From: Sinisalibacter aestuarii
Lineage (GTDB): Bacteria; Pseudomonadota; Alphaproteobacteria; Rhodobacterales; Rhodobacteraceae
DNA: 64,000 nucleotides
Direction: 5' to 3'
Assembly: GCF_027923545.1 (NCBI RefSeq)
Contig: NZ_BROH01000002.1
Location: forward strand, 124,001 to 188,000
In this document: piece by piece, positions 2,832 through 6,723 of the stretch
Numbering within the stretch: position 1 is the first letter of the stretch
How the letters are laid out: the number at the start of each line of letters is the position of its first letter
The notes under the pieces: model-generated
What the model was told of the DNA's origin: nothing
The model's input: the letters and a program-made list of their open reading frames with translations, nothing else
Database searches by the model: none
Program-made: the position numbers and the translations under genes

Positions 2832-4007
2832 ATGCCTGCCGCAGCACCCGCAACCGCACCCAAAAAGACCCACCCGACCGCCTGCCTCGCCCTGGCCGAT
2901 GGCACGGTGTTCTACGGCGCAGGCTTCGGCGCGACCGGAGAGACCACCGCCGAGTTGTGCTTCAACACCGCCATGACCGGCTATCAGGAAATCATGACCG
3001 ACCCGTCCTATGCGGGCCAGGTCGTCACCTTCACCTTCCCCCATATCGGCAATGTCGGCGTGAACGCCGAGGATGACGAGGCCAACGAGCCGGTGGCCGC
3101 CGGCATGGTGGTGAAATGGGATCCGACCGAGCCGTCCAACTGGCGGGCGACGGACGAGCTTCGGAGCTGGCTCGCAAGCCGGGGCCGGATCGGCATCGGC
3201 GGGGTCGATACCCGCCGCCTTACCCGCGCAATCCGCCAGCAGGGCAGCCCGCATGTGGCGCTGGCCCATGACCCGGACGGCAAGTTCGACATCGAGGCGC
3301 TGGTGGCCAGGGCACGCGCCTTTCCCGGCCTCGTCGGGCTCGACCTGGCGAAAGACGTCACCTGCCGCCAGTCCTACCACTGGGACGAGATGCGCTGGGC
3401 CTGGCCCGACGGCTACAAGCGGCAGGAAGCGCCCCGGCACAAGGTCGTCGCCATCGACTACGGCGCCAAGCGCAATATCTTGCGTTCGCTGGCCTCGGCC
3501 GGCTGCGACGTGACGGTGCTGCCCGCCACCGCCACCGCCGAAGAGGTGCGCGCGCTGAACCCCGATGGCGTGTTTCTCTCCAACGGGCCGGGCGATCCGG
3601 CGGCGACGGGCGAATATGCCGTGCCGATGATCCGCGAGCTTCTGGCCGACGAGGCTCTGCCGATCTTCGGCATCTGCCTCGGCCACCAGATGCTCGCCCT
3701 CGCGCTCGGCGCCAGGACCGTGAAGATGAACCACGGCCACCACGGCGCGAACCACCCGGTGAAGGACCATGACACCGGCAAGGTCGAGATCACCTCGATG
3801 AATCACGGCTTCACCGTCGACAGCCAGACCCTGCCCGATGGCGTGAAGGAAACCCATGTGAGCCTGTTCGACGGGTCGAATTGCGGCATCGCGCTGGAAG
3901 ACCGGCCGGTATTCTCGGTGCAATACCACCCCGAAGCCAGCCCCGGCCCGATGGACAGCTACTACCTGTTCGAGCGCTTCGCCGAGGCGATGGACGCACG
4001 CAAATAA
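2832..4007 (+). CDS. carA: carbamoyl-phosphate synthase small (glutaminase) subunit
   Basis: Hydrolyses glutamine and passes ammonia to CarB to make carbamoyl phosphate for arginine and pyrimidine synthesis, in the cytoplasm. The protein has 391 residues, normal for the family. The N-terminal CPSase_sm domain spans about residues 14-150 and has the [10 protein letters not shown]-like opening and [15 protein letters not shown]. The class I glutamine amidotransferase domain spans about 205-385. The nucleophile is Cys282 in GICLGHQ, with His366 and Glu368 in YHPEASPGP completing the triad. carB is not in the window. The start is fixed by AGGGGAG just upstream. Confidence 0.97.
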
Positions 4008-4029: not shown

Positions 4030-4045
4030 TTAACCGCGCGTTAAC
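4030..4045 (+). promoter_or_regulatory. CtrA-type box, TTAA-N7-TTAAC
   Basis: TTAA at 4030-4033 and TTAA at 4041-4044 are separated by exactly seven bases, and a C follows. This is the full consensus site for the alphaproteobacterial cell-cycle/motility regulator CtrA. It lies about 43 bases ahead of the glycosyltransferase start, and no other gene reads from this gap. Binding is inferred. Confidence 0.6.
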
Positions 4046-4086
4046 ATTCCCTGCGCCATGCTTGCCCCGCAGAGGGACATTTGGCG

Positions 4087-6048
4087 ATGCAGGCACAGGA
4101 CAGCACGGGCAGAGAATGGGAGAGCGTGCGCCACGGGGCGGGCGCCTGGCCGCGGGCGGTCGCCACCGCTCCAACCCGGCGCAAGCCGGTGGGGCAGATC
4201 CTCGTCGAGCGCGGCGATCTCGCATCCGGCGATCTGGCGCGCGCCGTCGCCCTGCAGCAGCGCGAGGATGCCCGCTTCGGCGATATCCTTCTCGCACAGG
4301 GCATGGTCACTTCCGAAGCGCTCCATGCCGCGCTGGCCGAGCAATACGGCACCGAGGTGGCCGCGCTTGCCGCCGAACCGCCCGATGTGCGCCTCGTCGA
4401 TGCACTCGGAGCGGATTTCTGCATCCGCCACTCGGTTCTGCCGTGGAAGCGCGCGGGCGCGGCGACGGTGGTGATCTGCTCGCGGCCCGACGAATTCGCC
4501 CGCATCGCCCCGCACCTGACCGAGCGCTTCGGGCGGGTGCGCCTCGCCATCGCGCCCGAAGCCGATATCCAGTCGGCCCTGATCGCCACGCGGCACCGGG
4601 CGCTGGCGCAACGGGCCGAAACACGGGTGGCGGCGCATGAAAGCTGCCGCAGCTGGCAGACCGGCCCGGCCTGGCGCTACGTGGTGGCGATGCTGACGGC
4701 CATCGCCGCCCTCGCCCTTGCCTCGCCGGTCGCGGCCTTCGCGTTGCTCACCATCTGGGCGGTGCTCACCCTCAGCGTCAATTCCGCGCTGAAGCTCACC
4801 GCCGCCGTGCTTTACATGCGCCGCCGCTCGCGGGTGGAGCGCGCCAGCCATGAGGACATCGCCGGCGGCCCCGGCTTTCTGCGCCTGCCCACGGTGTCGA
4901 TCCTCGTGCCGCTGTTTCAGGAACGCGAAATCGCGGGGCGGCTGGTTCAACGGCTCGCCGCCCTCGATTACCCGCGCGAATTGCTCGATATCTGCCTCGT
5001 CGTCGAGGCCGATGACAGGCTGACGCAAGACACGCTGGCGCGCTCCGATCTGCCGCGCTGGATGCGCCAGATCACCGTGCCCGGCGGCGCCGTGCGCACC
5101 AAGCCGCGCGCGCTCAACTTCGCCCTCGATTTCGTGCGCGGCTCGATCGTCGGGGTCTATGACGCCGAAGACGCACCCGAGCCCGGCCAGATCCACAAGG
5201 TCGTGCGCCGCTTCGCCGAACGCGGGCCATCGGTGGCCTGCCTGCAGGGGGTGCTCGATTTCTACAACCCGCGCGAAAACTGGCTCGCCCGCGCCTTCAC
5301 CATCGAATACGCCACCTGGTTCCGGATCATCCTGCCCGGCTACGAGCGGATGGGGTTTGCCGTGCCGCTGGGCGGCACCACCCTGTTCTTTCGCCGCTCG
5401 GCGCTGGAAGAGCTCGGCGGCTGGGATGCCCATAACGTCACCGAAGATGCCGATCTGGGCATCCGCCTCGCCCGGCACGGCTACCGCACCGAATTCATCG
5501 AGACCGTCACCAAGGAAGAGGCCAATTGCCGCGCCCTGCCCTGGATCAAGCAGCGCTCGCGCTGGATCAAGGGCTACGCGATGACATGGGCGGTGCATAT
5601 GCGCAGGCCCCGCCGCCTGCTGGCCGAAATCGGCCTGCGCAAGTTTCTTGGCGTGCAGATCCTGTTTCTCGGCACGCTCAGCCAGTTCCTGCTCGCGCCG
5701 ATCCTGTGGAGCTTCTGGGCGCTGCCGCTCGGCCTGCCTCACCCGCTGGTAAACGCGATGCCGCCGGCGATGTTCTGGGTGCTGGCCGGGGTGTTCGCCT
5801 CGTCGGAGATTCTCACCATCGCCGTGGGCGTGCTGGCGGTCTCACAGGGCGAGCACCGCTTCCTGATGAAATGGGTGCCCAGCTTGCATGTCTACTGGCC
5901 GCTCGCCACCTTCGCCGCGATCAAGGGGGTGAGCGAGATCCTCACCAAACCGTTCTACTGGGACAAGACCCGCCACGGGCATCTGCACCGCGATCACGAT
6001 ATCTGGGCCGTCAGGCGCCCCCCGCTCCTGCGGCGGAATCGAGCCTGA
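4087..6048 (+). CDS. family 2 glycosyltransferase with N-terminal MshEN (c-di-GMP-binding) domain
   Basis: A 653-residue membrane polysaccharide synthase. The N-terminus carries two copies of the 24-residue MshEN motif, with Gly36/Gly43/Leu50/Gln57 and Gly65/Gly72/Leu79/Gln86 exactly 29 residues apart. In MshE and NfrB this arrangement binds cyclic di-GMP. A hydrophobic hairpin follows at about 195-240. The processive GT2 domain has DAED at 359-362, the TED motif at 452-454 and Q(489)RSRW(493), then further membrane helices to the end. NfrB has the same two modules but with MshEN at the C-terminus. The sugar is unknown. The start could be TTG at 4081 (GAGGG closer) instead of ATG 4087. Its 3' end overlaps the convergent GntR gene by 38 bases. 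Confidence 0.9.
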   Translation: MQAQDSTGREWESVRHGAGAWPRAVATAPTRRKPVGQILVERGDLASGDLARAVALQQREDARFGDILLAQGMVTSEALHAALAEQYGTEVAALAAEPPDVRLVDALGADFCIRHSVLPWKRAGAATVVICSRPDEFARIAPHLTERFGRVRLAIAPEADIQSALIATRHRALAQRAETRVAAHESCRSWQTGPAWRYVVAMLTAIAALALASPVAAFALLTIWAVLTLSVNSALKLTAAVLYMRRRSRVERASHEDIAGGPGFLRLPTVSILVPLFQEREIAGRLVQRLAALDYPRELLDICLVVEADDRLTQDTLARSDLPRWMRQITVPGGAVRTKPRALNFALDFVRGSIVGVYDAEDAPEPGQIHKVVRRFAERGPSVACLQGVLDFYNPRENWLARAFTIEYATWFRIILPGYERMGFAVPLGGTTLFFRRSALEELGGWDAHNVTEDADLGIRLARHGYRTEFIETVTKEEANCRALPWIKQRSRWIKGYAMTWAVHMRRPRRLLAEIGLRKFLGVQILFLGTLSQFLLAPILWSFWALPLGLPHPLVNAMPPAMFWVLAGVFASSEILTIAVGVLAVSQGEHRFLMKWVPSLHVYWPLATFAAIKGVSEILTKPFYWDKTRHGHLHRDHDIWAVRRPPLLRRNRA

Positions 6049-6664
6049 GCCGGGTCTCGAAGGCGCGGCTGATATGGGCGCGCAGGGCGGTATCGGCCGC
6101 ATCGCCATCGCGCGCCTCGATCGCCTGCACGATCGCATCATGCTCGGCGATCGCCTTCTCCGAACGCCCCTCCACCGCCAGCGAGGTGGTGGCCAGCAGC
6201 GCCATGGTGCGATGCACGAGATCGAGCTGCTGGACGAGATAGCGATTGTGGCTGGCCAGGTGGATCTGCTTGTGAAAGCGCCGGTTGGCCCGCGCCAAAG
6301 CCGACGGGTCGTTCACCCGCTTGCGGTCTTCCTCGACCAGTTCGCGCAGCACCCGTACCTCTTCCGGCGCCGCGTGCTGCGCCGCCAGCCGCGCCGCCAG
6401 CCCTTCCAGCTCGGCGCGCACGGCGTAAAGCTCGGCCAACTGGTTGTGATCGAGCGAGGCGACGATGAGCGAGCGCCCGTCGCGGATCAGCAGGCTCTGC
6501 GTTTCCAGCCGCTGCAGCGCCTCGCGGATCGGGGTGCGCGACACGCCGAACCGCTCGGCCAGCTCGCTTTCCACCATCCGCGCGCCGGGCCGGTAAATCC
6601 CGGCGTCGATCGCATCGAGGATCAGCGAATAGGCGTCTTTCTGCGTCGGTTTCTCGTCGGCCAC
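6011..6664 (-). CDS. GntR-family transcriptional regulator, FadR/FCD subfamily
   Basis: A 217-residue regulator. The winged helix-turn-helix spans about residues 10-75, with SELAERFGVSRTPIREALQRLE being the classic GntR recognition region. The all-helical FCD ligand domain covers the rest and includes FHKQIHLASHN and an EHDAIVQAIEARD stretch. These domains bind carboxylic-acid ligands, often through a metal. I start it at GTG 6664, which has GGGAGGA five bases upstream; an upstream in-frame ATG gives an unlikely Cys-containing extension. Palindromes with GTATAC cores sit just ahead of it, suggesting autoregulation. It is divergent from the pyrimidine nucleotidase gene. The ligand is unknown. 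Confidence 0.92.
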   Translation of the reverse strand: MADEKPTQKDAYSLILDAIDAGIYRPGARMVESELAERFGVSRTPIREALQRLETQSLLIRDGRSLIVASLDHNQLAELYAVRAELEGLAARLAAQHAAPEEVRVLRELVEEDRKRVNDPSALARANRRFHKQIHLASHNRYLVQQLDLVHRTMALLATTSLAVEGRSEKAIAEHDAIVQAIEARDGDAADTALRAHISRAFETRLRLDSAAGAGGA

Positions 6665-6675
6665 ATGATCCTCCC

Positions 6676-6689
6676 GTATACAATTGTAC
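6676..6689. promoter_or_regulatory. probable GntR operator 1
   Basis: The stretch contains GTATAC (6676-6681) merging into the 10-base palindrome TACAATTGTA (6679-6688). It sits 12 bases ahead of the GntR start codon. FCD-type GntR operators commonly have GTATAC-centred dyads. A second GTATAC core is centred exactly 50 bases away. Confidence 0.4.
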
Positions 6690-6723
6690 TGACTATGCAC
6701 GCGATTGCCGGATGATCAAGCTG

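Follow-up and report, generated by a model that had tools for sequence, protein, structure and literature searches.

The window analysed here is a 64,000-nucleotide (nt) stretch of Sinisalibacter aestuarii DNA (contig NZ_BROH01000002.1, positions 124,001 to 188,000 of the forward strand; coordinates below are those of the window). The gene under study is an open reading frame at 4087-6048 on the forward strand, predicted to encode a glycosyltransferase family 2 (GT2) synthase of 653 amino acids, of the processive kind and with an intact N-terminal MshEN receptor for cyclic di-GMP (c-di-GMP). A full CtrA box stands ahead of it, and this combination, already pointed out in a sequence-only reading of the window, suggested that a regulator of motility and a second messenger might act on one polysaccharide synthase. 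The features of the promoter and gene are:

4030-4045, forward strand: full CtrA box TTAACCGCGCGTTAAC, seen in the sequence inside the 79-bp gap between carA and the synthase gene, about 42 bp ahead of the start
4057-4062, forward strand: predicted -10 element CATGCT, in which A 4058 would be -11 and T 4062 would be -7
4069, forward strand: predicted transcription start, placed near this position by a distance of 24 nt from box end to start, as in Rhodobacter sphaeroides
4071-4077, forward strand: Shine-Dalgarno-like AGAGGGA, read from the sequence
4087-6048, forward strand: MshEN-GT2 processive polysaccharide synthase, 653 amino acids, from profile matches; AlphaFold model with a mean predicted local distance difference test score of 85.5 and a predicted template modelling score of 0.85
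4186-4257, forward strand: MshEN_N motif 1, residues 34-57, NF053729 match; model helices 35-41 and 47-59
4273-4344, forward strand: MshEN_N motif 2, residues 63-86, NF053729 match; model helices 64-70 and 76-87
4345-4593, forward strand: MshEN_C subdomain, about residues 87-169; Pfam MshEN (PF05157) match at 87-167
4660-4845, forward strand: long helices before the catalytic domain, residues 192-253 (model helices 192-212 and 214-253), probably in the membrane
4885-5598, forward strand: GT-A catalytic core, residues 267-504, with E307/D310, DAED 359-362, TED 452-454 and QRSRW 489-493
5608-5946, forward strand: C-terminal helices, residues 508-620, taken as interface and translocation-channel membrane helices; their membrane placement is suggested by the BcsA match

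The start codon is most likely ATG 4087, because it is separated from the Shine-Dalgarno-like sequence by 9 nt, whereas the in-frame TTG at 4081 follows that sequence after just 3 nt.

A predicted c-di-GMP receptor fused to a processive glycosyltransferase

Numbered from ATG 4087, motif 1 comprises P34-V-G36, G43, L50 and Q57 and motif 2 comprises R63-F-G65, G72, L79 and Q86, giving two 24-residue motifs with a 5-residue linker, the conserved Gly, Leu and Gln residues of MshEN and a period of exactly 29 residues, as the sequence-only reading had described. The NCBIfam model of the MshE-related c-di-GMP motif (NF053729) matches residues 35-86 with 44.4 bits (cut-off 38), and 14 of 14 relaxed motif positions are kept. 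Residue 34 is a Pro where MshE has Arg9; the same residue is found in Escherichia coli NfrB and is permitted by the relaxed motif as reported by Wang et al. (PMC5013675). In the AlphaFold model, built from a 53-row alignment, the four-helix MshEN_N and the MshEN_C fold are both present, and residues 32-169 match the structure of MshE in complex with c-di-GMP (5htl_B; Z 18.6, 1.9 Å over 137 residues).

The processive GT2 core claimed to follow the repeats is also there: all matches to Pfam GT2 models fall inside residues 268-549, and the DxD, TED and QxxRW signatures of processive GT2 enzymes of the BcsA/PgaC/NfrB kind occupy positions that are near-invariant over 263 aligned rows. Model residues from about 213 to 639, membrane part included, align to bacterial cellulose synthase (BcsA; Z about 25, about 370 residues), while among the 50 matches listed the top structural match is the mannosyltransferase PcManGT, with a Z of 28.0. 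No equivalog cut-off by which a sugar could be assigned was reached in the NCBIfam profile scan. The protein is probably embedded in the membrane, where it would polymerise a glycan and thread it out. A search of the S. aestuarii genome found one MshEN match, three GGDEF domains and a single CtrA that passed the NCBIfam threshold (431 bits; cut-off 350).

The CtrA box is conserved across the Rhodobacteraceae

The site at 4030-4045 is the only TTAA-N7-TTAA in the window (0.02 expected), and it lies, as had been noticed, in the only intergenic space ahead of the gene, a gap of 79 bp from the end of carA at 4007. The 4.1-Mb genome holds 10 exact sites and 19 of a reversed control pattern; the 21 genomes counted carry 7-41 exact boxes each, and the pattern was no commoner than the reversed control in S. 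aestuarii and 12 of the other 20. As the motif is not over-represented genome-wide, genome counts alone prove nothing and the case for the box rests on its conservation.

A relative of the synthase was detected at E 1e-30 or better in 267 of 295 Rhodobacteraceae genera, each represented by one genome. The loci examined numbered 266 at genus level plus 79 named ones; one genome with its match at a contig start (G022) was left out of the fetched loci, three loci with short frames (L159, L244, L344) were left out of the alignment counts, and a locus at a contig end with no upstream sequence (L158) was left out of the box counts. The closest named relatives were Rhodobacterales bacterium CG2_30_65_12 (84%) and Maritimibacter sp. 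HL-12 (78%), with Rhodobacter capsulatus at 55%. Synteny is kept: in 247 of the 265 loci eligible for this count, the gene immediately 5' of the synthase is carA, in the same orientation. Between the two genes the box is exact in 215 of 265 loci (S. aestuarii included), has one mismatch in its eight bases in 41 and is worse in 9; the exact box of one locus (L239) starts inside carA, 15 bp from its end, and this locus is counted as box-less in a first tally (214 exact, 10 worse) and in the counts by receptor class, and restored in the figures just given. The sequence-only reading had proposed conservation of the box as a check, and the result is far stronger than anything visible from the sequence alone. 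Dinucleotide shuffles of the same stretches gave 0-2 exact boxes of 265 (twenty plus ten rounds) and 6-12 with one mismatch (ten rounds). Compared with these shuffles, both the exact boxes (215 against 0-2) and the one-mismatch boxes (41 against 6-12) rule out a chance pseudo-palindrome.

In a profile of 214 loci anchored on the box, the N7 spacer was most variable, and both TTAA halves and the C's after them were kept; the second half reads TTAACCA in most relatives and TTAACAT in S. aestuarii. Four promoters (L065, L073, L077 and G005:C1:638300-638325) carry two exact boxes each, which in L065, L077 and G005 overlap as three TTAA half-sites in an 11-bp phase, suggesting cooperative CtrA binding.

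Promoter geometry and CtrA controls

A further conserved register was observed downstream of the box in the 214 loci; with the box's first T numbered 0, it consists of A at 27 and 28 and of T at 31 and 32. An A-N3-T in this register or one base earlier occurs in 156 of 255 loci; elsewhere the mean is 20 and the maximum 43. In the mapped CtrA promoters of R. sphaeroides, transcription is reported to begin 23 or 24 nt after the box, the base at -11 to be always A, and the start codon to follow the transcription start by 12 to 33 bp (PMC6180460); applied here, this rule would place the -11 A at position 27 or 28. The predicted leader is 18 nt long and the 5' end of the box would fall at about -39. 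Activating full boxes of Caulobacter are described with their 5' base near -35, that of ctrA P2 being at -39, and repressing half-sites with a position over the -10 (PMC4287350). A conserved full box at activating distance, by which direct members of the CtrA regulon are recognised, is accordingly found here.

The cckA promoter was used as a positive control. A match was obtained in 39 of 41 genomes, and in the 30 best-scoring family loci, which were counted, there were 27 exact boxes, and the downstream register lay within one base of that of the synthase promoters. Predicted CtrA sites ahead of ctrA, cckA and divL have been reported for Dinoroseobacter shibae (PMC4046655). The R. sphaeroides fla2 promoters and the family cckA promoters share with the present promoter the box position, the spacing to the start and an A near -11; they drive flagellar or phosphorelay genes, whereas the target here is a polysaccharide synthase. 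Six other boxes, all of the TTAAC form, were inspected among the 10 exact sites of the S. aestuarii genome. A CckA-like kinase follows one of them (CckA is its best-scoring family with 232 bits, below the whole-protein cut-off of 1000, in a cut frame), and a PAS-rich protein that resembles DivL by its domain make-up follows another; the remaining four are uninformative, two preceding small proteins without a Pfam match and two being located inside, or at the beginning of, other open frames. No flagellar gene was recognised behind any of the six. An exact box of the CtrA type was observed after the 3' end of a phosphoenolpyruvate-utilising (PtsP-like) gene (L386:1649; C7:55447 of the same genome), with a minus-strand frame of 116 amino acids without a Pfam match about 33 bp away on its other side.

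CtrA was present in 19 of 20 sampled genomes with the synthase and in 7 of 20 without it (from 267 and 28 genomes, respectively), a comparison confounded by ancestry and genome reduction. Taken together, the family-wide conservation of the box, the promoter geometry and the cckA control make activation of the synthase gene by CtrA very likely.

The receptor has eroded in many relatives

The sequence-only reading had named repeats that are not conserved in orthologues among the findings that would refute it, and the outcome on this point was divided. Among 262 aligned relatives the receptor motif is near-complete (at least 13 of 14 relaxed positions) in 103 and intermediate (10-12) in 56; it is degraded (at most 9 of 14) in 74 and not alignable in 29, that is, degraded or not alignable in another 103. 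The last class, scored as absent, includes the contig-end locus L158 and a small number of rows that have hardly any N-terminal sequence, so that a few of its members may be truncated. All 14 relaxed positions are kept in L011-L013, the three closest relatives at genus level (66-71% identity). These scores agree with a phmmer search using the motif region of the S. aestuarii protein (E below 1e-3), which found 100 of 103, 34 of 56, 14 of 74 and 0 of 29 members of the four classes; the NfrB segment, as a more distant query, found 45, 4, 0 and 0. Many of the changes sit at positions reported as binding-abolishing in GspE (PMC5013675). In rows where the motif decays the catalytic positions stay near-invariant. 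Erosion of the receptor in so many relatives indicates that gating by c-di-GMP is not essential to the enzyme.

The box is kept irrespective of receptor class: at most one mismatch was found in 100 of 103 near-complete, 54 of 56 intermediate, 71 of 74 degraded and 27 of 28 absent cases. On a tree of the GT core (FastTree, 258 rows) at least 40 changes were required for an intact receptor and at least 25 for an absent one, with losses scattered over the tree; branch support was not assessed, and we therefore claim only that loss occurred many times (the strict class used on the tree, 95 intact of 263, differs from the 14-position score). Forty genomes chosen for a near-complete receptor and 40 chosen for a receptor that was degraded or missing all had GGDEF domains (80 of 80), which rules out loss of c-di-GMP signalling as the route of receptor decay. 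The best reading is that many lineages dropped a c-di-GMP lock. For the S. aestuarii synthase itself, control by c-di-GMP is well supported by the motif, the predicted fold and the likeness to the NfrB receptor; as a family-wide rule it is weaker than the CtrA link. Beyond the Rhodobacteraceae, 15 loci of other alphaproteobacterial families were compared; 12 encode a full-length MshEN-glycosyltransferase with the same N-terminal arrangement, some of the motifs looking imperfect.

Comparison with known synthases

NfrB of E. coli, the c-di-GMP-activated synthase of the glycan receptor of phage N4, likewise combines a GT2 core and MshEN in one protein. The order of the modules is reversed, as the sequence-only reading correctly noted: in NfrB the glycosyltransferase comes first and MshEN second, whereas the receptor is N-terminal here. 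The receptor regions share 30% identity over 181 residues (E 5e-10), and the glycosyltransferase parts only 23% over 240 residues; the NfrB equivalog model scores 66.7 bits against a cut-off of 1170. NfrB is encoded in an operon with an NfrA-like exporter, which is not found beside the present gene, and the present gene has its own CtrA-box promoter. NfrB is reported to bind c-di-GMP, and its synthase is considered to be switched on when c-di-GMP occupies MshEN (PMC8669469, PMC8669472). With the sensor at the opposite end of the protein, an activating sign of c-di-GMP here is an inference. The fusion of MshEN to glycosyltransferases is not new in itself, as it was already stated by Wang et al. 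(PMC5013675).

Cellulose synthase BcsA shares the GT-A core, the membrane helices, QxxRW and regulation by c-di-GMP, the last being predicted for the protein studied here; BcsA, for which structures in complex with c-di-GMP are available, senses it via a C-terminal PilZ domain. Neither bcsB nor bcsC occurs among the nine neighbours of the synthase gene, and the CelA equivalog model (TIGR03030) scores 58.3 bits against 699.1. The profile of the poly-N-acetylglucosamine synthase PgaC/IcaA (TIGR03937) matches residues 232-619 with 56 bits against a cut-off of 422, and no pga-like partner genes were found among the same nine neighbours. The PgaC and CelA models each match 53 of the 53 members scanned. 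The synthase appears to work like NfrB or BcsA, and by these profile scores it stands outside both equivalog families.

Gene neighbourhood

The flanking genes closest to the synthase are:

2832-4007, forward strand: carA, carbamoyl-phosphate synthase small chain (Pfam GATase and CPSase_sm_chain), directly 5' of the synthase gene
6011-6700, reverse strand: GntR/FCD regulator (Pfam), convergent, its 3' end overlapping the 3' end of the synthase gene

The nine neighbours between 593 and 12871 encode a major facilitator superfamily protein, YqeY, CarA, the GntR regulator, a HAD protein, an aminotransferase, a trypsin-like peptidase, the glycyl-tRNA synthetase alpha chain and MarC. Ten genes of the window were sought in 52 long named loci, where YqeY recurred in 47, carA in 50, GntR in 41 and HAD in 39, and the other genes seldom. 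In each of the 41 loci with GntR, its match starts at most 208 bp from the synthase match, so that no exporter gene lies between the two. The GntR regulator shows no sign of belonging to the synthase system. Ten loci of the genus-level set have a box whose first TTAA reaches 4 bp back into the carA frame, and the site shares bases with the carA stop codon.

Proposed mechanism and alternatives

The reading that we prefer, with a probability of about 60%, is that the synthase promoter is activated by phosphorylated CtrA (CtrA~P) and that the activity of a processive glycan synthase is gated by c-di-GMP at its N-terminal MshEN. CtrA~P would bind 4030-4045 over the -35 region and recruit RNA polymerase; the synthase would sit in the inner membrane with MshEN on the cytoplasmic side. 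In the Caulobacter paradigm c-di-GMP works against CtrA~P, and for this reason motile or predivisional cells would produce the enzyme and keep it ready, and a later rise in c-di-GMP, for example on surface contact, would fire it. The change from motile to sessile life would then bring a short pulse of polymer made by enzyme already in place, and in lineages without a working receptor output would be set by the CtrA layer alone. The proposal of the sequence-only reading that CtrA and c-di-GMP join two lifestyle switches on one polysaccharide is upheld for CtrA by conservation, geometry and the cckA control and, for this protein, for c-di-GMP by motif, fold and NfrB likeness; the two look joined in only part of the family, since in 103 of 262 relatives the motif has degraded or could not be aligned.

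Several observations weigh against this reading. The receptor erosion just mentioned is one, and the order of loading and firing is borrowed from Caulobacter. No NfrA-like exporter or co-polymerase was found among the nine neighbours, the rest of the genome not having been searched for an exporter. Ahead of the 15 relatives from other alphaproteobacterial families there were no exact boxes and two with one mismatch; the box is thus a trait of the Rhodobacteraceae, and the CtrA link is not ancestral to the enzyme. A full site ahead of cckA in Ruegeria KLH11 is reported together with a cckA that does not respond to CtrA (PMC3692519), showing that a box alone is no proof of regulation. Finally, the near-complete genome G184 (locus L199) has an exact box, a degraded receptor and no CtrA match at E 1e-90; either CtrA was overlooked by the search or the box is read by another regulator.

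The last two cases would suit an explanation in which CtrA does not use the box as an activator, either because another regulator reads it or because CtrA represses, and the pattern is, moreover, not over-represented in the S. aestuarii genome. We consider this very improbable: the N7 spacing, the TTAACCA form in most relatives and the -10 register agree with what has been mapped at promoters activated by CtrA, the repressing half-sites reported from Caulobacter overlie the -10 (PMC4287350), and CtrA is far more frequent in sampled genomes with the synthase (19/20) than in those without (7/20). Alternatively, CtrA control could be real and MshEN a structural relic or docking part, leaving a synthase that is constitutively active once made and has one switch. 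A receptor near-complete in only 103 of 262 relatives, a box kept in all receptor classes, and GGDEF domains in 80/80 genomes, by which receptor decay is independent of a loss of c-di-GMP signalling, agree with such a relic; it is nevertheless unlikely for S. aestuarii, whose motif exceeds the curated cut-off, and L011-L013 keep 14/14 positions, with the same N-terminal arrangement, some motifs imperfect, recurring in 12/15 loci of other families.

A different doubt concerns the product. The GT2 enzyme might build or decorate another envelope glycan, lipid-linked or periplasmic, which would need no outer-membrane exporter and would not make it an exopolysaccharide synthase. The gene stands alone between carA and GntR (within 208 bp in 41/52 loci) with no exporter or co-polymerase as a neighbour, and the mannosyltransferase PcManGT heads the structural matches listed (Z 28.0); the near-invariant processive signatures including QxxRW, a BcsA match that spans 213-639 with the membrane part, and PgaC and CelA models matching 53/53 members make this alternative rather unlikely. 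It has also to be asked whether the glycan serves gene transfer agents (GTAs), as a component of the cell surface or of a biofilm matrix that is bound by GTA particles or digested by the tailspike TspA, which would explain CtrA control. GTA production is reported to need CtrA and GTA binding to recipients to need extracellular polysaccharide (PMC9552610), TspA of R. capsulatus to degrade the biofilm of its own species (preprint PMC13420450), and R. capsulatus has the synthase gene with an exact box (L067, L069). However, the known exopolysaccharide pathway of R. capsulatus is described as being under quorum sensing (PMC9552610), biofilms of other tested Rhodobacterales were affected only weakly by TspA (PMC13420450), and no direct link was found, so that we regard this role as improbable.

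Roseobacters and Rhodobacter relatives are major surface colonisers. In the open-licence literature searched we found no matrix polysaccharide synthase named as tied to CtrA in these bacteria, and the main texts of several CtrA studies, including PMC4046655 and PMC3692519, contain no occurrence of 'glycosyl'. Likewise, the N-terminal MshEN arrangement in this family, its CtrA promoter and the repeated loss of the receptor were not found in that literature, although the gene may already be listed in published expression data for R. capsulatus and D. shibae. The synthase gene, with a relative in 267 of 295 genera, is one candidate for such a CtrA-linked matrix synthase, and the box shared by most genera of the Rhodobacteraceae makes it look like an unstudied core output of a regulator that also controls motility. 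More tentatively, and at somewhat less than even odds, CtrA-driven transcription of this near family-wide surface-glycan synthase may be the fixed lock and c-di-GMP an optional one that was dismantled many times, turning a two-key into a one-key system, with both keys together forming a load-then-fire adhesion device. About 100 genera with and about 100 without an intact-looking receptor on the same enzyme offer a natural experiment on what c-di-GMP allostery adds to transcriptional control.

Additional copies and an interrupted frame

Distant second MshEN-glycosyltransferase copies, with 35-37% identity and a match beginning at residue 31-34, were observed at G107:C17:78883-80691, G088:C3:534246-536057 and G272:C2:204566-206425. 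In Aliiruegeria lutimaris (L052, 6001-7845) the synthase frame is interrupted by one stop codon within the matched stretch.

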